From Bernardetiaceae bacterium (GTDB lineage: Bacteria > Bacteroidota > Bacteroidia > Cytophagales > Bernardetiaceae), in NCBI GenBank assembly GCA_020832465.1, contig JAFIER010000107.1, forward strand, positions 1 to 55,386: a DNA stretch of 55,386 bases, in the 5' to 3' direction. A program made the position numbers and the translations under genes. The number at the start of each line of letters is the position of its first letter. Position 1 is the first letter of the stretch. The notes beneath the pieces are model-generated. The model had not been told where the DNA came from. It saw only the letters and a program-made list of their open reading frames with translations, and ran no database searches. Positions 1,732 to 55,386 of this stretch are shown one piece after another.

Positions 1732-1737
1732 AAAATT

Positions 1738-1861
1738 ATACTACTGTACGTTTTTTCATAGCGTGGGGGTTGCAAACCCACGCTATGGAAAAGTGGGCTT
1801 AGAAATAACATTTCTTTGAGAAATGTTATTTCTATATGGAGAATGTCCAGTAGTAGTATGA
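1738..1861 (+). repeat. R1 composite palindromic element, copy 1 (type copy)
   Basis: MITE-like element of about 124 bp. Its termini are inverted: ATACTACTGTAC on the left and AGTAGTAGTATG on the right. Inside are a GC-richer palindrome B (1757-1787, arms CATAGCGTGGG/CCCACGCTATG around TTGCAA) and palindrome A (1801-1833, AGAAATAACATTTCT, loop TTG, AGAAATGTTATTTCT). It has no coding capacity. It lies 6 bp after the peptidase stop. Other R1 copies in whole or part are near 19145, 28945, 37445, 43460, 44371, 50171, 51352 and 55346. Confidence 0.85.
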
Positions 1862-4712: not shown

Positions 4713-4745
4713 AGAAATAACATTTCTCAAAGAAATGTTATTTCT
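4713..4745. repeat. Palindrome A, canonical copy
   Basis: Perfect inverted repeat with arms AGAAATAACATTTCT and AGAAATGTTATTTCT and loop CAA. It lies 46 nt after the folD stop with no U-tract behind it, so it is not a classical terminator. Downstream flank CTGGCTGTTAA matches the flank of the R1 copy at 37510. Confidence 0.8.
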
Positions 4746-5988: not shown

Positions 5989-6492
5989 TTACTTCTTCAA
6001 AAAGTCAATCTTATCACGCAGCATGGCGTACATCCAAGTACCGAAAATGGCACTGATAAGTGTTACGATAATCACCGTGAACCCACTACCAATTTGAGCG
6101 AAAAGCGGCCCTGGGCACGCGCCCGTAATGGCCCAGCCCAAACCGAATATCATACCGCCAAAAATCTGTCCCCAGCGAAATTCTTTGTTAGGAATCGAAA
6201 TAGGCTCGCCCGAGAAGGTTTTGGCTTTGAATTTTTTTATCAAAAATACAGAAATTGCCGCCACGACTACTGCCGTACCGATAACGCCGTACATAAAAAA
6301 GGATTGTAAGCGAAACATTTCCTGAATCCTAAACCAAGAAATAATTTCAGCTTTTACGAATACTGTACCAAAAATAATACCGACTATCAAGTACTTAAAA
6401 TTTGCTTTAAACATCTCACCAATAGAGGTAGGTGGCACTTGTGTAACAATCGGATTTTGCTTTTGCGACTTTGTTGTTGTCTTTGTTTGCAT
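5989..6492 (-). CDS. YeeE/YedE-type sulfur transporter subunit (DUF6691/PmpB-like half)
   Basis: A 167-residue protein with four predicted membrane helices after a cytoplasmic N terminus. The signature FGLGWAITGACPGPLFAQIG carries C126, the conserved Cys of YeeE/YedE half-transporters that import thiosulfate or related sulfur species through a relay of cysteines. It is the last gene of the minus-strand sulfur cluster and follows its partner half-transporter, with a palindrome between them. Substrate is inferred from the family and from the rhodanese/persulfide context, not shown by sequence. Confidence 0.85.
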   Translation of the reverse strand: MQTKTTTKSQKQNPIVTQVPPTSIGEMFKANFKYLIVGIIFGTVFVKAEIISWFRIQEMFRLQSFFMYGVIGTAVVVAAISVFLIKKFKAKTFSGEPISIPNKEFRWGQIFGGMIFGLGWAITGACPGPLFAQIGSGFTVIIVTLISAIFGTWMYAMLRDKIDFLKK

Positions 6493-6531
6493 AATGAATT
6501 AAATGTCTATGTTTTAGGTAATAATATTTTC

Positions 6532-6578
6532 AAGAATCAGAACTAACAGTTCTGCCAGAACTGTTAGTTCTGATTCTT
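6532..6578. repeat. Palindrome A variant overlapping a stop codon
   Basis: Perfect 22-bp arms (left arm ends AACTAACAGTTCT, right arm begins AGAACTGTTAGTT) around a GCC loop. Relative to canonical A, both arms carry paired changes (A to C and T to G) that keep them complementary. The hairpin overlaps the last two bases of the preceding gene's stop codon. Confidence 0.85.
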
Positions 6579-7140
6579 AAAGCCCAAGGAAAAAACCGAG
6601 CAATAAGTTGGTCATGATAAAACCACCGACCATAAAACTAATCGTAGCGATAAGCGATGGCACTTGTAAACTGGCTATACCCATAATGGCGTGCCCAGAG
6701 GTGCACCCCCCAGCCCAGCGTGCGCCGAAGCCTACCATAAATCCACCCACGACTATAAACATAAATCCACGCAAGGTGAAAAGACTCTCCCAAGAAAAAA
6801 TATCAGCGGGAAGCAAATTGCCAAAATCTGTAACGCCTAAGGCTTGCAAATCCGCTACCGTAGCTTCTGAAACTTGAATAGGCTCGGGATTGCTTAAAAG
6901 AAATGTTGCTACAATACCGCCAATAAGCGTACCGACAACAAAAAACATGTTCCACATTTCGTTTTTCCAATTATACTGAAAAAATGAAATATCCGCAGGC
7001 ACACAAGCCGCACAAGTATGGCGCAGAGTAGCTGAAATGCCAAATTTTTTATTGCCTAAAAAAAGAAGTACGGGCACGGTAAGCCCTACTAAAATGCCCG
7101 CCACATACCAGGACCAAGGCTGACGAATAAATTCTAACAT
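6577..7140 (-). CDS. YeeE/YedE-type sulfur transporter subunit (PmpA-like half)
   Basis: A 187-residue membrane protein with about five helices. It carries the family motif ARWAGGCTSGHAIMG (C146) and an extra C-A-A-C pair (C43, C46) in the first loop. With the next gene it should form a two-piece transporter for thiosulfate, sulfide or persulfide-like sulfur. Its position downstream of rhodanese and thioredoxin genes supports that role. ATG at 7140 gives a normal N terminus. Confidence 0.87.
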   Translation of the reverse strand: MLEFIRQPWSWYVAGILVGLTVPVLLFLGNKKFGISATLRHTCAACVPADISFFQYNWKNEMWNMFFVVGTLIGGIVATFLLSNPEPIQVSEATVADLQALGVTDFGNLLPADIFSWESLFTLRGFMFIVVGGFMVGFGARWAGGCTSGHAIMGIASLQVPSLIATISFMVGGFIMTNLLLGFFLGL

Positions 7141-7186
7141 AGAATAAATAAGTTTGTTTTGATATGAAAATATATTTGATTGTTAT

Positions 7187-7238
7187 AGCAAATTTTAGGA
7201 ATAAGATTTCGTTGAGAAATCTTATTCCTAAAATTGCT
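7187..7238. repeat. Palindrome A variant directly after a stop codon
   Basis: Arms of about 23 bp (core TTTTAGGAATAAGATTTC against GAAATCTTATTCCTAAAA) around a GTTGA loop. It ends on the base before the rhodanese stop codon. The core GGAATAAGATTTC has the same plan as canonical A with paired substitutions. Confidence 0.8.
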
Positions 7239-7688
7239 TTATTGCTTTATAGGCTGACCGCCTGATTGCCAAGCAGATATGCCACCTTTGAGGTTATACA
7301 CTTTTGCTTCACTTTGAGCGGTCATTTTCTTGACAGCTTGTGTGCTTCGCATGCCACTACGGCAATAGACAGCGTAGGTTTTATCTGCCGACATATTTTC
7401 TACTGCTTTGTTGAAAGCAGCAGAGCCGAGCTCGAGGAGTTTTGCACCTTTGATATGCCCACCGGCAAATTCGCCTGCTGTGCGCACGTCCCAAATTTCA
7501 ACATTTTTATTAGCTACTTGCGCCGCAAACTCCTCTGCATTGAGGTTTTCGTATTTTTTTTCTTTATTACCAAATAGTCCGAAAAACATAGTATTTTTTT
7601 GATTTTGTGTTTTAGATTCTGAACAGCCAAAAAGGCTTGTGCTCACCGAGAGCATCAAGATTGTGAGTATATAGATTGTTGTTTTCAT
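7239..7688 (-). CDS. Rhodanese-domain lipoprotein (sulfurtransferase)
   Basis: A 149-residue protein with a lipoprotein signal (lipobox SLFGC, C22), so it is probably anchored facing the periplasm. The single rhodanese domain covers about 45-145. Active-site loop YCRSGMRS carries the persulfide-forming C109. Such domains move sulfane sulfur between thiosulfate or persulfide donors and thiols. It lies between thioredoxin and the YeeE pair in the sulfur cluster, which fits delivery of extracytoplasmic sulfur to the transporter. Confidence 0.88.
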   Translation of the reverse strand: MKTTIYILTILMLSVSTSLFGCSESKTQNQKNTMFFGLFGNKEKKYENLNAEEFAAQVANKNVEIWDVRTAGEFAGGHIKGAKLLELGSAAFNKAVENMSADKTYAVYCRSGMRSTQAVKKMTAQSEAKVYNLKGGISAWQSGGQPIKQ

Positions 7689-7700
7689 AATTTTAAATAA

Positions 7701-7747
7701 GCATTTTATAACTCACAGTTCTTTCAGAGCTGTGAGTTATGAAATGC
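7701..7747. repeat. Palindrome A variant between thioredoxin and rhodanese genes
   Basis: Arms of 22 bp with two mismatches (core ATAACTCACAGTTCT against AGAGCTGTGAGTTAT) and loop TTC. It lies 13 nt downstream of the thioredoxin stop on the minus strand. The mismatches can form G-U pairs in RNA. Confidence 0.75.
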
Positions 7748-7760
7748 CAAGTGCTCATGA

Positions 7761-8057
7761 TTAAGCATATTTAGCTAATAAATTCTTGAGTTCGGCTTTG
7801 GATTTTACACCTGATTCGCGCCAAAGCATTTCACCTTTTTTGAAAATCATGAGGGTAGGCACGCCTCTGATTTGAAATTTTTGGGCAACAGCCTGATTTT
7901 TATCTACGTCTATTTTTATAATTTTTGCCGCATCGCCTATTTCTGATGATAACTCCTCTAAAATCGGAGCGAGCATCTGACAAGGACCGCACCAAGCGGC
8001 AGTAAAGTCTATCAATACGGGTTTTTCTGAATCTACGATTTCATTAAAAGAAGCCAT
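7761..8057 (-). CDS. Thioredoxin
   Basis: A 98-residue, single-domain cytoplasmic thioredoxin with active site WCGPC (C23, C26) and the cis-Pro segment RGVPTLMIF. It reduces disulfides. In this cluster the likely partners are persulfidated rhodanese proteins or the MBL fusion upstream. It is slightly shorter than E. coli TrxA and has no signal peptide. Whether it is the housekeeping thioredoxin cannot be decided from this window, so no symbol is given. Confidence 0.93.
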   Translation of the reverse strand: MASFNEIVDSEKPVLIDFTAAWCGPCQMLAPILEELSSEIGDAAKIIKIDVDKNQAVAQKFQIRGVPTLMIFKKGEMLWRESGVKSKAELKNLLAKYA

Positions 8058-8113
8058 AATTTTTATTTTGTTTTTTGTGTGATTATAATTTGTGTGCTCT
8101 TATAAATTTTTCA

Positions 8114-8162
8114 AAAATTTTAGAAATAACATTTCTGCCAGAAATGTTATTTCCAAAATTTT
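8114..8162. repeat. Palindrome A, extended copy between MBL fusion and thioredoxin genes
   Basis: Canonical A core with loop GCC, lengthened to 23-bp arms by flanking AAAATTTT on both sides and carrying a single mismatch. It lies 10 nt downstream of the MBL fusion stop. Confidence 0.85.
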
Positions 8163-8172
8163 CTTTAATTAC

Positions 8173-9579
8173 TTAGACTAAGGTAGAAGGACAAACCTCC
8201 GCACTCTTAGCGACATCAGTCTCTGCAATGGCTTTAAAACCGCCCTCTACATTGACTAAGTTGTGAACCCCACGTGCTTTCAATACAGAAGCTGCAATCA
8301 TAGAACGGTATCCGCCCGCACAGTGGATATAAGCATCAGCACTATTATCAAACTTATCCATGTGGTCGTTGATATAGTCAAGCGGTGCGTTGATAGCCTC
8401 CTCTACGTGCTGCGAGAGGTATTCGTTTTGCTTGCGCACATCGACAACTTTTACGTTATCTGCTTTTTTGCGTGAAGCAAATTCAGTAGCAGAAATAGAA
8501 GTTACAGAATCAGTCTCTTTACCAGCAGCCTCCCAAGCAGCGAAGCTACCTTTCAAAAATCCGATAGCGTGGTCGTATCCTACACGAGCTAAGCGCGTAA
8601 CAACTTCCTCTTCACGGCCTTCTTCGGCTACTACAAGTATTTTTTGTGTAATATCAGGAATCAAAGCACCTACCCAAGGGGCAAAACTGCCGTCTATACC
8701 TACAAATACAGACTTAGGAATAAATCCTTTTGCAAACTCATCTGCGGAGCGTGTATCCAACACAAGCGCACCCGTAGCATTAGCTACTTGCTCAAATTCA
8801 TTGGGCGCTAAGGCTTGCAAACCTCTATCCAATACGTCATCAATGCTATCATAACCTTGCTTATTCATACGCACATTTTCAGGGAAATAAGCCGGTGGGG
8901 GCAGAAGTCCGTCTGTTACTTCTTTGATAAAAGCCTCTCTACTTTCAGCGCGTAAAGCGTAGTTTACTTGTTTTTGATTGCCGAGCGTATCGAAGGTTTC
9001 TTTGCTCATGTTTTTACCACAAGCCGAACCTGCACCGTGTCCGGGATATACGATTACATCATCGGGCAAGGTCAAGATTTTGCCGTGCAAAGAATCATAT
9101 AAATGAGATGCTAAATCTTCTTGCGTAAGGTCAGTTTTTACTGCCAAATCTGGGCGACCGACATCACCGATAAAGAGTGTATCACCTGTAAAGATAGAAT
9201 GCTCTTTGCCGTCTTCGTCAATCAAAAGGAAAGTAGTAGATTCCATCGTATGACCAGGCGTATGCAACACTTTGATTTTGACGTTACCGAGTGGTAAAAT
9301 TTCGCCATCTTCAGCTACATGTGCCTCATAATCGGGTTTTGCATTGGGTCCGAAAACGATTTTACCACCGCTTTGCTTTGCCAAGTCTAAGTGCCCTGAT
9401 ACAAAATCTGCGTGAAAATGTGTCTCGAGGACGTATTTGATTTTAGCATTATCTTTTTTAGCTTGCTCTACGTAAGGTGCAACTTCGCGTAAGGGGTCAA
9501 TAATAGCGGCCTCGCCATTAGAAACAATGTAATATGCGCCGTGCGCTAAACAACCTGTATAAATTTGTTCTACTTTCAT
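8173..9579 (-). CDS. MBL-fold/double-rhodanese fusion (persulfide dioxygenase-sulfurtransferase type)
   Basis: A 468-residue cytoplasmic protein. Residues 1-240 are an ETHE1-like metallo-beta-lactamase domain with metal motif THFHADFVSGH (H54, H56, D58), HTPGH, FTGDTLFIGDVGRPDL and YPGHGAGSACG. Two rhodanese domains follow (about 255-350 and 365-455). The first lacks a catalytic Cys in its loop (VAEEGRE), while the second has CAGGYRS with C420. Proteins of this plan (CstB-like) oxidise persulfides to sulfite or thiosulfate and shuttle the sulfur. It lies between the TauE exporter and thioredoxin, consistent with sulfide or persulfide detoxification. The residue after the metal-binding Asp is Phe instead of the more usual His. 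Confidence 0.9.
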   Translation of the reverse strand: MKVEQIYTGCLAHGAYYIVSNGEAAIIDPLREVAPYVEQAKKDNAKIKYVLETHFHADFVSGHLDLAKQSGGKIVFGPNAKPDYEAHVAEDGEILPLGNVKIKVLHTPGHTMESTTFLLIDEDGKEHSIFTGDTLFIGDVGRPDLAVKTDLTQEDLASHLYDSLHGKILTLPDDVIVYPGHGAGSACGKNMSKETFDTLGNQKQVNYALRAESREAFIKEVTDGLLPPPAYFPENVRMNKQGYDSIDDVLDRGLQALAPNEFEQVANATGALVLDTRSADEFAKGFIPKSVFVGIDGSFAPWVGALIPDITQKILVVAEEGREEEVVTRLARVGYDHAIGFLKGSFAAWEAAGKETDSVTSISATEFASRKKADNVKVVDVRKQNEYLSQHVEEAINAPLDYINDHMDKFDNSADAYIHCAGGYRSMIAASVLKARGVHNLVNVEGGFKAIAETDVAKSAEVCPSTLV

Positions 9580-9667
9580 GATATTGGAACGTTTTGAGTG
9601 TAAAAATTAAAAAAAGATTTTTGAAATATTTTGAATAAGTATTGTTGTAATACTATTAAATTCGTTT

Positions 9668-10462
9668 TTAAAACAATTCTTTGAATAAGATATAGATAGA
9701 CATAACGATTAAGAACCAACCAAAACCTTGCTTCAAACTATCGGCTTTGATGCGCTTGGCAAGTCGTGTGCCTATGAATATACCACCACTTGCTAACACC
9801 GAAAATATAGCTAAAAATTCCCATTCCATACCACCTGGATATGCCATTACGTCGCCTACAAATCCGATTAAAGATTTTACCGATATAATCAAAAGCGAAG
9901 TACCGATAGCTAATTTGATGGGCAAGCGTGCCAAAATGACTAAGGCAGGTACAATCATAAATCCACCACCAGCACCTACAAGTCCTGTAATACCACCAAC
10001 AACTAAGCCCTCAACTAATATCAAAGGATAATTATACTTAACCTCTGCTGCCGTTTCAGGCTCTGGTGCTGCATTCTTCTTTTTGCGAAGCATAGAAGCG
10101 GCTGCTAATATCATAATAATAGCAAAAAATACCATTAAAGCAATACCTTTTGTCAGTACAAACTCTCCAAAAGTAGCAATTTCCTCAGGTATGATAGGTA
10201 CAACAAACTTGCGCACCACAAAAACCGCTATAAATGAAGGTATGGCAAAAACTGCTGCTGTCTTAAAATCTATCAATTTCTGACGTGCATAATCTGCTGC
10301 GCCTATGGCAGAAGTTACGCCTACAATAAAGAGTGAGTAGGCGGTAGCTAATACCGGGTCTTTGTCCGCTACATAAACTAATACCGGCACGGTCAGGATA
10401 GAACCGCCTCCTCCGAGAAGTCCAAGCGATACACCGATAATGAGAGCTAATACATATTCCAT
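9668..10462 (-). CDS. TauE/SafE family sulfite/organosulfur exporter
   Basis: A 264-residue membrane protein built of two related halves, each starting with a Gly-rich helix (SLGLLGGGGSILTVPVLVYV near 12-31 and GLVGAGGGFMIVPALVIL near 160-177). TauE/SafE proteins export sulfite, sulfoacetate or related anions. Next to a persulfide-oxidising fusion it most likely removes sulfite. It is the first structural gene of the cluster, with its own promoter and a candidate ArsR operator in the 178-bp gap behind the regulator gene. Confidence 0.88.
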   Translation of the reverse strand: MEYVLALIIGVSLGLLGGGGSILTVPVLVYVADKDPVLATAYSLFIVGVTSAIGAADYARQKLIDFKTAAVFAIPSFIAVFVVRKFVVPIIPEEIATFGEFVLTKGIALMVFFAIIMILAAASMLRKKKNAAPEPETAAEVKYNYPLILVEGLVVGGITGLVGAGGGFMIVPALVILARLPIKLAIGTSLLIISVKSLIGFVGDVMAYPGGMEWEFLAIFSVLASGGIFIGTRLAKRIKADSLKQGFGWFLIVMSIYILFKELF

Positions 10463-12671: not shown

Positions 12672-12704
12672 AGCAATAACATTTCTCAAAGAAATGTTAT
12701 TGCT
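12672..12704. repeat. Palindrome A, compensated variant
   Basis: Arms AGCAATAACATTTCT and AGAAATGTTATTGCT with loop CAA. The third base of the left arm (A to C) and the third from last of the right arm (T to G) changed together, so pairing is intact. It lies 51 nt after the pyrC stop and has no U-tract. Confidence 0.85.
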
Positions 12705-15607: not shown

Positions 15608-15835
15608 GGGTGTACGGGTGTACGACAACTTTGCTAAATTAGTTCAGAAATAACATTTCTGGCAGAAATGTTATTTCTATAATTTACTAATTGTCAATAA
15701 CTAACAGTTTCCGAAAAACTGTTAGTTTTGAATCTTCCTAAGTCGATTTACCAACTTGACATACACCCGGGTGTACGGACAATCTTGCTAAATAAAATTG
15801 TAGTGCTGCATAGTTCGGCCAGAACTGGTAGAGCT
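15608..15835. repeat. Two F2 elements joined end to end, with two A-type palindromes
   Basis: The first unit (15615-15769) has ends CGGGTGTACGACAACTTTGC and CCAACTTGACATACACCCG. It contains a canonical A palindrome (15646-15678, loop GGC) and a second one, AACTAACAGTTT-CCGAA-AAACTGTTAGTT (15699-15727). Its right end runs into another left end (GGGTGTACGGACAATCTTGC from 15769), followed by a decayed palindrome. An extra GGGTGTAC precedes the first unit. This accounts for most of the 418-bp gap. Confidence 0.75.
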
Positions 15836-17370: not shown

Positions 17371-17411
17371 AATTAGAAATAACATTTTTTCAAAAAATGT
17401 TATTTCTAATT
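17371..17411. repeat. Palindrome A, near-perfect 20-bp arms
   Basis: AATTAGAAATAACATTTTTT and AAAAAATGTTATTTCTAATT are exact reverse complements separated by a single C. It lies about 60 nt beyond the stop of the GH3-like gene. Confidence 0.85.
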
Positions 17412-25123: not shown

Positions 25124-25202
25124 TGTGTGTACGTCAAGTTGGTAAAACGACTTAGATAATTTGAGCACTCACAGTTCTGCCAGAGTTGTTAGTGCTCAAA
25201 TT
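25124..25202. repeat. F2 left end fused to an A-type palindrome
   Basis: Left end TGTACGTCAAGTTGGTAAAA followed by CGACTTAG, then the palindrome TTTGAGCACTCACAGTTCT-GCC-AGAGTTGTTAGTGCTCAAA (25158-25202, three mismatches). No right F2 end is visible before the pruA stop 11 nt later. Confidence 0.65.
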
Positions 25203-28944: not shown

Positions 28945-29069
28945 CATACTACTAGGCATTAGCTAGTCAGAAATAACATTTCTCAAAGAAATGTTATTTC
29001 TAAGTACATTTTTGCATAGCGTGGGGTTTACAAACCTCACGCTATGCAAAAATGTATAGTAGTATTATG
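28945..29069 (-). repeat. R1 composite palindromic element, copy in reverse orientation
   Basis: Full 125-bp copy with termini CATACTACTAG and TAGTAGTATTATG. Palindrome A (28969-29001, canonical, loop CAA) precedes palindrome B (GCATAGCGTGGGG...CCTCACGCTATGC, 29014-29046). Order is reversed relative to 1738-1861, so the whole element is inverted. It ends 30 nt before the antiporter start. Confidence 0.85.
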
Positions 29070-34616: not shown

Positions 34617-34743
34617 AAAATTTTGATAGTATGATTATTGTGAAAAGTACATTTTTATCATACTACGAAAAAAAAGACAATAAAAGACGCTTTTTTGAAC
34701 CAAAAATTATAATTTTTTTAAATTGGGTGTATTTTAAGATAGT

Positions 34744-34796
34744 AAATCAGCCCAGAAATAACCTTTCTTTAAGAAATGTTATTTCTGGACTGATTT
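34744..34796. repeat. Palindrome A, extended 25-bp arms
   Basis: AAATCAGCCCAGAAATAACC... against ...GTTATTTCTGGACTGATTT around a TTA loop, with two mismatches. Just downstream, CAATTTTTCGTATTTT is present twice (34800-34815 and 34862-34877) as a direct repeat. Confidence 0.8.
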
Positions 34797-34906
34797 AGCC
34801 AATTTTTCGTATTTTATTTAACCTATGCTTTGCTTCAGGCTTAGAAGTATAAAATTAGATTCAATTTTTCGTATTTTGAAAACAAAACGCGCTAAACAAA
34901 AACAAT

Positions 34907-37226: not shown

Positions 37227-37326
37227 GTACGAGGTTTTTGGCTAAGTTAGTTTAGAACTAAGAGTTTGCGAAAACTGTTAGTTTTGAAACTGCCTAAGTC
37301 TATTGAGCAATTTGGTATGTACCTCG
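37227..37326. repeat. F2 palindromic element
   Basis: Ends GTACGAGGTTTTTGGCTAAG and AGCAATTTGGTATGTACCTC are imperfect inverted repeats with the internal CTAAG/CTTAG-type motif. The centre is an A-type hairpin AGAACTAAGAGTTT-GCG-AAAACTGTTAGTT (37254-37280). Confidence 0.65.
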
Positions 37327-37444
37327 CCATACCCGATGCAAATATTTTTTTGGCAAATTTTTGATAAAAACAAATCTATATGGCTTATTTTTAGTTTAGG
37401 AGTTAGCACTAAGATTTCTTGGCAGAACATTTAATGCTAATTTT

Positions 37445-37562
37445 CATACCCCTATACATTTTTCTATAGCGTAGGGTTTGCAAACCCCACGCTATAGAAA
37501 AATGAGCTTAGAAATAACATTTCTTTGAGAAATGTTATTTCTGGCTGTTAATGTCCAGTAGC
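37445..37562 (+). repeat. R1 composite palindromic element
   Basis: Left end CATACCCCTATAC, palindrome B (37464-37497, CTATAGCGTAGGG...CCCCACGCTATAG), spacer, palindrome A (37510-37542, canonical, loop TTG), right end GTCCAGTAG. Same orientation as 1738-1861. Together with the F2 copy just upstream it fills much of the 648-bp gap before the protease. Confidence 0.8.
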
Positions 37563-41704: not shown

Positions 41705-41736
41705 AGAACTAACAGTTTTTTAAAACTGTTAGTTCT
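41705..41736. repeat. Palindrome A variant, perfect 15-bp arms
   Basis: AGAACTAACAGTTTT and AAAACTGTTAGTTCT with a TT loop, nine nt after the deiminase stop on the minus strand. It shares the AACTAACAG core of the copy at 6532. Confidence 0.85.
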
Positions 41737-43459: not shown

Positions 43460-43568
43460 CATACCACTATACATTTTTCCATAGCGTGGGGTTTGCAAAC
43501 CCTACGCTATGGAAATAAGATTTCTCAAAGAAATGTCATTTCTGGGTAGCGAATGTATAGGAGTATGA
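43460..43568 (+). repeat. R1 composite palindromic element with eroded A
   Basis: Termini CATACCACTATAC and GTATAGGAGTATGA are nearly perfect inverted repeats. Palindrome B (43479-43512, CCATAGCGTGGGG...CCCTACGCTATGG) is good. The A arms are partly lost (GATTTCT-CAA-AGAAATGTCATTTCT). It occupies the gap before tdk. Confidence 0.8.
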
Positions 43569-50422: not shown

Positions 50423-50473
50423 CAGTTTTATAGAAATAACATTTCTGACAGCAATGTTATTTCTATAAAACTG
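50423..50473. repeat. Palindrome A, extended copy
   Basis: Canonical core (loop GAC) with one mismatch in the right arm (AGCAATGTTATTTCT), lengthened by CAGTTTTAT/ATAAAACTG to 24-bp arms. It lies 51 nt beyond the stop of the zinc-ribbon lipoprotein. Confidence 0.8.
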
Positions 50474-51351: not shown

Positions 51352-51454
51352 CATATCGCTATACATTTTTCCGTAGCGCGGGGTTTGCAAGCCCTGCGCT
51401 ATGGAAAAAAGAGCTTAGAAATAACATTTTTTGAGAAATGTTATTTCGGGCTGG
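51352..51454 (+). repeat. R1 composite palindromic element
   Basis: Left end CATATCGCTATAC, palindrome B (51371-51404, CGTAGCGCGGGG...CCCTGCGCTATGG), then palindrome A (51417-51447, AGAAATAACATTTTTT/AGAAATGTTATTTCG). In B, a T-to-C change in the left arm is matched by an A-to-G change on the right. The right terminus is eroded. Confidence 0.75.
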
Positions 51455-55345: not shown

Positions 55346-55386
55346 CATACTATTATGCATTTTTTCATAGTGTGGGGTTTGCAAAC
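55346..55386 (+). repeat. R1 element, left part (cut by window edge)
   Basis: CATACTATTATGCATTTTTT followed by CATAGTGTGGGGTTTGCAAAC, i.e. an R1 left terminus and the first arm and centre of palindrome B. The rest lies beyond the window. Confidence 0.75.

Follow-up and report, generated by a model that had tools for sequence, protein, structure and literature searches.

A hairpin module carried by MITEs of a Bernardetiaceae bacterium varies in step between its arms, probably through a palindrome-restoring mutational process

The window, the whole stretch of DNA analysed here, comprises 55,386 nucleotides (contig JAFIER010000107.1 of assembly GCA_020832465.1) of the 4.60-Mb draft genome of a Bernardetiaceae bacterium, which consists of 289 contigs. 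At 12672-12704 its letters read exactly AGCAATAACATTTCT CAA AGAAATGTTATTGCT, a copy of a 33-letter palindrome, denoted as A, with 15-bp arms and a 3-nt centre. This copy carries a paired A3C change; its right flank scores as arm a of the F2 family described below, its left flank is unrecognised, and it is probably a decayed F2 MITE. The A arm matched the window 49 times with at most 3 mismatches on both strands, against 6.2 expected and a maximum of 13 in 100 shuffles, and the canonical whole palindrome was found genome-wide at 626 sites (at most 3 mismatches), whereas its reversed control gave 0. The palindrome noticed at 12672 from the letters alone is thus real. Nearly all arm matches in the window are parts of palindromes, and for this reason a DNA uptake signal was dropped as an interpretation. 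When both subfamilies, A1 (AGAAATAACATTTCT) and A2 (AGAACTAACAGTTCT), were searched in a sample of 1,086,863 bp, 358 A sites were obtained (reversed control, 1), from which we estimate by proportion about 1,500 copies in the genome, a thousand or more. A count of 16,875 perfect inverted repeats was inflated, probably by N runs, and was left out of the results. The long hairpin has energies of -14.9 kcal/mol for the canonical core and -19.5 kcal/mol for the A2 core, and is ahead by a wide margin of the two small nested hairpins, which reach -2.5 and -7.1 kcal/mol, respectively. Rfam at gathering thresholds detected one tRNA in the window and nothing else, and a search of the open-licence literature with four A 15-mers found no paper containing A sequences.

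At least three MITE families, F1, F2 and F3, which differ in their ends, contain A as a core module, and further families probably carry it as well. F1 runs from CATACTACT through A and a second palindrome, B, to AGTAGTATG. F2 runs from GGGTGTACG through A to CGTACACCC and is also present in a two-hairpin form, in which A1 and A2 are 18 nt apart, and F3 has the layout GGTAGTGTATAACAAGTAATGCTT-A2-GAAAGACTTTGAGCATTACATCTTTAAGACTACC, with nearly identical copies of 91 bp. Terminal inverted repeats are present at both ends of each family, beginning with CATACTACT in F1, GGGTGTACG in F2 and GGTAGT in F3. In 689 kb, exact direct repeats of at least 7 bp flank 8 F1, 10 F2 and 13 F3 copies (raw counts without a shuffle control); by eye, the target duplications of the three families are 8-9 bp, and MITE copies with a duplication are 85-299 bp long. 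By carrier, the 358 sample sites comprise 98 in F1, 71 in F2, 30 in F3, 9 in the repeat type E1, 6 mixed and 144 unassigned. A is therefore not confined to MITEs, in that 144 of the 358 sites are without a recognised MITE arm, but the null thresholds for the arms are conservative, having been derived from this same repeat-rich sample, and MITE copies may be among the unassigned sites.

The window contains examples of most of these arrangements. F1 MITEs with palindrome B lie at 1737-1857 (minus strand; A core 1801-1833), 28969-29056 (plus strand; A core 28969-29001 adjoining B), 37445-37542 (plus strand; A core 37510-37542), 43460-43567 (plus strand; A core 43511-43543, with AGAAATAAT directly repeated at both ends) and 51352-51448 (plus strand; B side and A core 51417-51448, right part decayed), and a strongly diverged A2-like core at 37405-37438 adjoins an F1b-like flank. 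Palindrome B itself (CATAGCGTGGGGTTTGCAAACCCCACGCTATG) was located at 1752-1792, 29005-29056, 37457-37504, 43476-43515 and 55346-55386, inside which the window ends. F2 is represented by a two-hairpin MITE at 15616-15768 (plus strand; A1 core 15646-15678, 18-nt linker, A2 core 15697-15729), by a diverged A2 core adjoining F2 arm a at 25164-25196, whose flank pairs across the core over 6 nt, by an F2-derived core at 34754-34786, whose F2b flank is mirrored on the opposite side (34743-34797) in a template-switch-like manner, and by a decayed A2 core inside an F2 copy at 37254-37285. An E1-type repeat holds the core at 4713-4745. Cores with an outer stem occupy 6529-6581 (A2 core 6539-6571; stem locus-specific and overlapping the 3' end of the minus-strand gene 6577-7140), 7191-7235 (core 7197-7229 with paired changes; stem locus-specific), 7701-7747 (diverged A2 core 7708-7740), 8114-8162 (core 8122-8154; stem AATTTT/AAAATT, about 10 nt from the 3' end of the minus-strand gene 8173-9579) and 50423-50473 (core 50432-50464 in a convergent gap; stem locus-specific). 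Two more cores are situated in convergent gaps, one with a paired C14T change at 17375-17407 (by our own gene calls) and the A2 core AGAACTAACAGTTTT-TT-AAAACTGTTAGTTCT at 41705-41736. The sequence-only reading had listed three variants whose places needed revision: the AGAACT variant exists with its core at 6539-6571, the given position 6532 falling in the outer stem; the AGGAAT variant lies at 7197-7229 and not at 7187; and the supposed AGTTCT form at 41705 reads AGAACTAACAGTTTT/AAAACTGTTAGTTCT with a 2-nt centre. The window also holds six clustered minus-strand genes at 5989-10462 whose domains are sulfur-related (two Sulf_transp, rhodanese, thioredoxin, MBL-rhodanese and TauE), and an A hairpin follows four of the six.

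Regarding the origin of the families, a 1224-bp element at locus L207 (contig 277 of the window's genome, G000) has the F1 end CATACTACTAGACA at both ends and encodes a PF01609 protein, whose best NCBIfam match is NF033591 (IS4 family) at 149.7 bits, just below the cut-off of 152; the sequence stops at its right end, so that the target duplication is out of view. We consider this IS4-like element a candidate transposase source for the F1 MITEs. Considering that it carries no A, the A module was probably not inherited from that IS. No autonomous relatives of F2 and F3 were found, and the 689 kb contained no long element that combines F1-F3 ends with a duplication. An IS1 parent was rejected, as the sole PF03400 match was below the cut-off, had four internal stops and was judged false (its neighbourhood looks VgrG-like by eye), and an IS1595 parent was rejected because there was no PF12762 match. 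Candidate empty sites of F2 within the genome were also discarded; by eye, most of the reported pairs were alternative forms with one or two hairpins, or carried other insertions, and were not clean empty sites. The genomes drawn included no second species of the genus, and when one protein was compared with five relatives, their best matches were 59-64% identical.

We also considered that A could be a REP element moved by a RAYT (Y1) transposase, given that the genome has three Y1_Tnp genes and that A is palindromic, extragenic and abundant. However, no A palindrome lies in the 2.0-3.3 kb around the three genes, where only two lone arms with 3 mismatches were seen, A sits inside MITEs with target duplications, and no constant GTAG or CGTC tag was visible by eye beside the core in 76 long-stem sites and in MITE copies. 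We give this reading almost no credence.

Other palindromes were encountered in the same elements. A third palindromic repeat, which has GAAGCTCCAGCTTCG arms, occurs within F2 copies (L029:1439-1633, L030:14674, L182:14341-14477 and L050:8472-8578), apparently inserted in or beside the A core. Several E1-type repeats (L027:16769, L042:9709, L047:2105 and L166:5755) have another palindrome, around GTAGCATAAGCTAC, in the place of A; the central hairpins of E1 are interchangeable. A slightly diverged duplicated segment (L156:150-700 and L185:290-840) has two A hairpins per copy, the second with centre GGC in one and GCC in the other.

The two arms of A change together more often than expected. 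Among 201 distinct cores, 154 cells had changed on both sides to a matching pair, against 42.5 in shuffles (maximum 58) under a null that ignores relatedness, and 44 pair types were observed versus 16.4; another 29 cells had changed on both sides without a match, and 406 were one-sided. In a second alignment of 73 hand-chosen sites out of 123 A sites (71 distinct cores), there were 67 two-sided cells versus 13.3, a value reached in 0 of 500 shuffles, with slid controls at 16 or fewer. This alignment also gave 34 pair types versus 21.5 (0 of 500) and 9 covarying pairs versus 6.1 (16 of 500). As in the first alignment, none of these shuffles preserves the relatedness of the copies. The compensatory pairing that was proposed from the variants at a few positions is therefore beyond chance in both alignments. 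The absence of any excess of paired over unpaired substitutions had been named as the observation that would speak against it. Pairing does exceed the shuffles, and in that sense the excess is there, but one-sided cells outnumber paired ones by 406 to 154, so the correction of one arm to the other is far from complete.

The proposal further held that A is self-complementary at two levels and that in one variant both nested pairings are kept. Within subfamilies, 26 paired changes were counted at the nested level versus 25.5 expected. With subfamilies pooled, the percentage of paired positions (86.3 versus 82.4) and the covariation score (0.147 versus 0.081) were above the shuffles, while covarying pairs (4 versus 5.1) and pair types (17 versus 17.3) showed no excess. 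The pooled two-sided cells (27 versus 10.6) were also raised, but 25 of the 27 fall in columns 5/11 and 23/29, which separate A1 from A2. Many of the listed sites in the genome G085 read AGAACTAACATTTCT/AGAAATGTTAGTTCT, in which the long pairing is kept and the nested pairing is broken. The two-level self-complementarity is thus a property of two founder sequences and not a maintained feature.

Covariation normally counts as proof that an RNA structure is under selection. The paired changes could reflect an RNA hairpin, in which A serves as a terminator, possibly a bidirectional one, and a second change restores the stem after a damaging first hit. The position of A relative to genes is in line with this. 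With our own gene calls in the sample (796 genes, 80% coding), 355 of the 358 sites are outside called genes and 3 are inside. Gaps of at least 40 nt contain A in 73 of 112 convergent, 138 of 387 codirectional and 37 of 121 divergent cases, the divergent gaps being the longest (median 415 nt versus 170 and 163 nt). An outer stem of at least 5 bp was present at 76 of the 143 unassigned sites with full flanks (null 11.3, maximum 21). The stem sequences vary from site to site by eye, and for 39 of the 76 some flank is repeated elsewhere in the sample. These long-stem copies number 26 in convergent, 35 in codirectional and 6 in divergent gaps, with 9 at stretch edges, whereas the intergenic bases are distributed as 13, 56 and 31%. 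A hairpin followed by a T-run was detected at 28 of 52 gene ends where a convergent gap contains a long-stem copy and at 24 of 74 where it contains a MITE-type copy. The corresponding figures are 10 of 78 for convergent gaps lacking A, 13 of 168 for divergent gaps lacking A and 30 of 642 for the interior of genes; the contrast was weaker in codirectional gaps (9 of 34 for long-stem copies versus 35 of 249). The core also forms the stable hairpin expected of a terminator, with the energies given above. Arm mismatches were fewer in convergent than in divergent gaps, 1.11 versus 1.81 (P 0.03, one of ten uncorrected tests).

Several results are not in agreement with the RNA hairpin as the cause of pairing. 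On the sense strand in codirectional gaps, mismatches comprised 49 G.U, 68 A.C and 105 others, so that G.U was not commoner than A.C. Long-stem copies in codirectional gaps had no excess of downstream T-runs (T5 in 5 of 35, A5 in 7), and although positions 6-10 downstream of them are T-rich (0.47), this is mirrored by upstream A (0.45). The convergent bias would also be expected if insertions are tolerated better at a distance from promoters, and it is present to a lesser degree in MITE-type copies (46 convergent, 93 codirectional and 41 divergent among 180). Inverted centres and mirrored flanks, described below, are not predicted by an RNA hairpin. We therefore regard selection on an RNA hairpin as possible but rather unlikely to be the source of the paired changes. 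Later recruitment of some long-stem copies at gene ends as bidirectional terminators is plausible. At gene ends, selection on the structure of an RNA may also contribute, but the paired changes do not show it.

Alternatively, A could be the site of a dimeric protein, which would bind the two 6-3-6 half-palindromes, so that paired changes would track a drifting specificity. The recurrence of the same core in two families of the order would fit such a site, but it is explained by copy number and MITE carriage. Moreover, paired changes were accepted at 14 of 15 positions in A1 and 13 of 15 in A2, that is at nearly every position, the nested, site-like level has no covariation within subfamilies, and palindrome B covaries as well. 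Thus, a dimer site seems improbable. For B, 34 paired changes were found versus 13.6 in shuffles (maximum 23) among 48 distinct cores of 49 sites. By eye, mirror-image insertions were noticed in both arms of a palindrome, namely 3 nt in B at L023 and 1 nt in A at L046.

The symmetry also extends into flanking sequence. Flanks mirrored across the core over at least 7 nt were found in 5 of 97 F1 copies (null 0.8, maximum 3) and 9 of 70 F2 copies (null 0.8, maximum 4), together 14 of 167 versus about 1.6 expected; examples are window 34743-34797 and L149:11211. With a threshold of 5 nt, F1 had 7 of 97 (null 2.4, maximum 7), no more than the highest of its 300 shuffles, and F2 had 11 of 70 (null 3.2, maximum 7).

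The centre of A occurs in both orientations. In 35 F1 copies with both arms recognised, the centre is TTG in 21, CAA in 11 and another sequence in 3. Among 93 oriented copies, 29 pairs were close (at most 6 of 48 flank differences), of which 18 share the same centre, 11 have the exact reverse complement and none differs otherwise; these pairs share copies, drawing on only 20 F1 copies overall and on 12 for the flipped ones. Because so few copies were involved, we built a tree, leaving out the core, from the 32 copies that have TTG or CAA and sufficient flank. This flank-only tree requires 9 centre changes (bootstrap 8-10) versus 9.3 with shuffled labels, of which its strongly supported branches force only 2. 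Centre orientation in F1 has no memory of descent. The window copies at 1801 and 28969 are both CAA, with nearest relatives in TTG. In F3, 1 of 30 copies has a flipped centre together with a corrected arm mismatch, and its right flank is lost. In the genome G147, which belongs to another family of the order, the central stretch of A1' was compared among 21 strict-pattern copies of a different MITE; it reads TTTTGAAAAAAA in 8 copies and, exactly inverted, TTTTTCAAAAAA in 7 copies, the remainder being TTTTTGAAAAAA in 2, its inverse TTTTCAAAAAAA in 1 and three others once each. Flips of GCC/GGC, CTG/CAG and TTA/TAA are one-base differences and prove nothing, so the TTG/CAA pair and the G147 stretch are the diagnostic cases. 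We considered whether the flipped centres could be assembly artefacts of a repeat-rich draft of 289 contigs, since contigs end in these repeats (the window in B, and contig C25 has A at bases 3-35). However, both the G000 and the G147 assembly contain flips, a palindrome of 33 bp is shorter than a usual read, and the covariation and mirrored flanks are independent of the flips. An artefact is therefore very unlikely.

Beyond this genome, the A1 pattern (at most 3 mismatches) was found in 7 of 390 genomes drawn from the order, including that of the window; five genomes of another family have 65, 21, 21, 19 and 1 sites, and one genome of the same family has 2. The pattern of both subfamilies (at most 2 mismatches) was matched among 149 genomes from the class, 144 of them outside the order, only by the window's own genome, with 779 sites. 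In the other genomes, and so in a second family of the order, the core occupies other repeats than in the window's genome: G147 has an A2-18 nt-A1' pair within the ends TAGGACTTACGCA, and G085 has A within an F3-like element, GGTAGTGCCACACAAGTAATGC. MITEs with different ends, F2 in G000 and the TAGGACTTACGCA element in G147, share both the core and the layout of two hairpins separated by 18 nt. This sharing favors ectopic gene conversion, in which copies would recombine in either orientation, homogenise arms, flip centres and move the core between MITE families, and the lack of memory of descent in spacer orientation would also be consistent with it. On the other hand, the mirrored flanks are locus-specific and would be hard to acquire from another copy, and 33 bp is short for homologous recombination. 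Gene conversion is the strongest rival for the sharing of cores between families and may act alongside template switching, but as an account of the whole we consider it a minority possibility, a little below the RNA hairpin. The likelihoods that we attach to these alternatives are not exclusive shares.

The absence of a G.U preference, the covariation of B, the mirrored flanks and the flipping centre together point to a mutational copying process that restores palindromes. We thus think it probable that such a process, most likely template switching, keeps up the symmetry of A, a hairpin module carried by MITEs. In this model, A would have spread over the genome as a DNA hairpin inside F1, F2 and F3, whose ends differ. 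A stalled nascent strand at replication would fold back or cross to the other strand and use the opposite arm as template, so that a change in one arm is copied to the other and compensatory pairs arise. Copying that runs past the core would mirror flanking sequence and produce longer, locus-specific stems, and a template switch between strands would invert the centre. While the copy number, MITE anatomy, paired changes, mirrored flanks and inverted centres are directly observed, we infer polymerase template switching as the process from their sequence pattern. In a study of yeast (PMC8604942), template switching at short inverted repeats is described as giving arm homogenisation and spacer inversion together, and in PMC8794818 it is proposed as a source of compensatory changes.

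Since the arms seem to be matched mainly by copying, paired changes here do not prove that an RNA or a protein site is under selection, and such selection is not needed to account for them. The sequence-only reading had taken paired substitutions as an argument for selection on an RNA hairpin, a cruciform or a dimeric site and against mere copying. The former part is not borne out, considering that G.U is not preferred (49 versus 68 A.C), and it is weakened further by the covariation of B, the mirrored MITE flanks, the flipping centre and the 14 and 13 of 15 positions that take pairs. The latter part stands in so far as copies are not merely inherited and pairing is kept above shuffles, but a mutational copying process is indicated instead of selection. 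More speculatively, the hairpin module itself might be mobile or contagious, with a dedicated process, of the cell or of a mobile element, that flips cores so often that descent is erased, lengthens them into the flanking DNA and, in two families of the order, passes the core among MITEs with different ends and hairpins at gene ends, thereby seeding new bidirectional terminators; we hold this to be less likely than gene conversion.

A resembles known systems in part. The template switching at short inverted repeats described in PMC8604942 and PMC8794818 likewise homogenises arms, inverts a short spacer, makes compensatory changes in a single step and extends stems, but these precedents are in yeast genes and RNA genes, whereas here hundreds of copies of one bacterial repeat serve as parallel replicates and flanks of mobile elements are mirrored too. 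Bacterial MITEs, which are non-autonomous and IS-derived, likewise have terminal inverted repeats and target duplications, with lengths of 85-299 bp and, for F1, an IS with matching ends; unlike them, families with different ends here share one internal palindromic module, which is absent from the F1-type IS. REP repeats of the GTAG and CGTC superfamilies (PMC3733652) are also extragenic palindromes of 20-40 bp in high copy, but neither a constant tag nor a RAYT association was detected for A, which is embedded in elements with terminal inverted repeats and target duplications. In common with bidirectional intrinsic terminators, many A copies lie in convergent gaps, some with A-run and T-run flanks, yet the A stem is A/T-rich, T-runs accompany few of the codirectional long-stem copies and A is also found in divergent gaps.

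Taken all together, hundreds of near-replicate palindromes, in which covariation is accompanied by inverted centres, mirrored flanks and no wobble bias, would represent the product of a mutational process. One internal hairpin is common to MITE families with different ends, and its copies provide a natural test bed for template switching in bacteria; they also urge caution when RNAs are sought by covariation in intergenic DNA that is rich in repeats.
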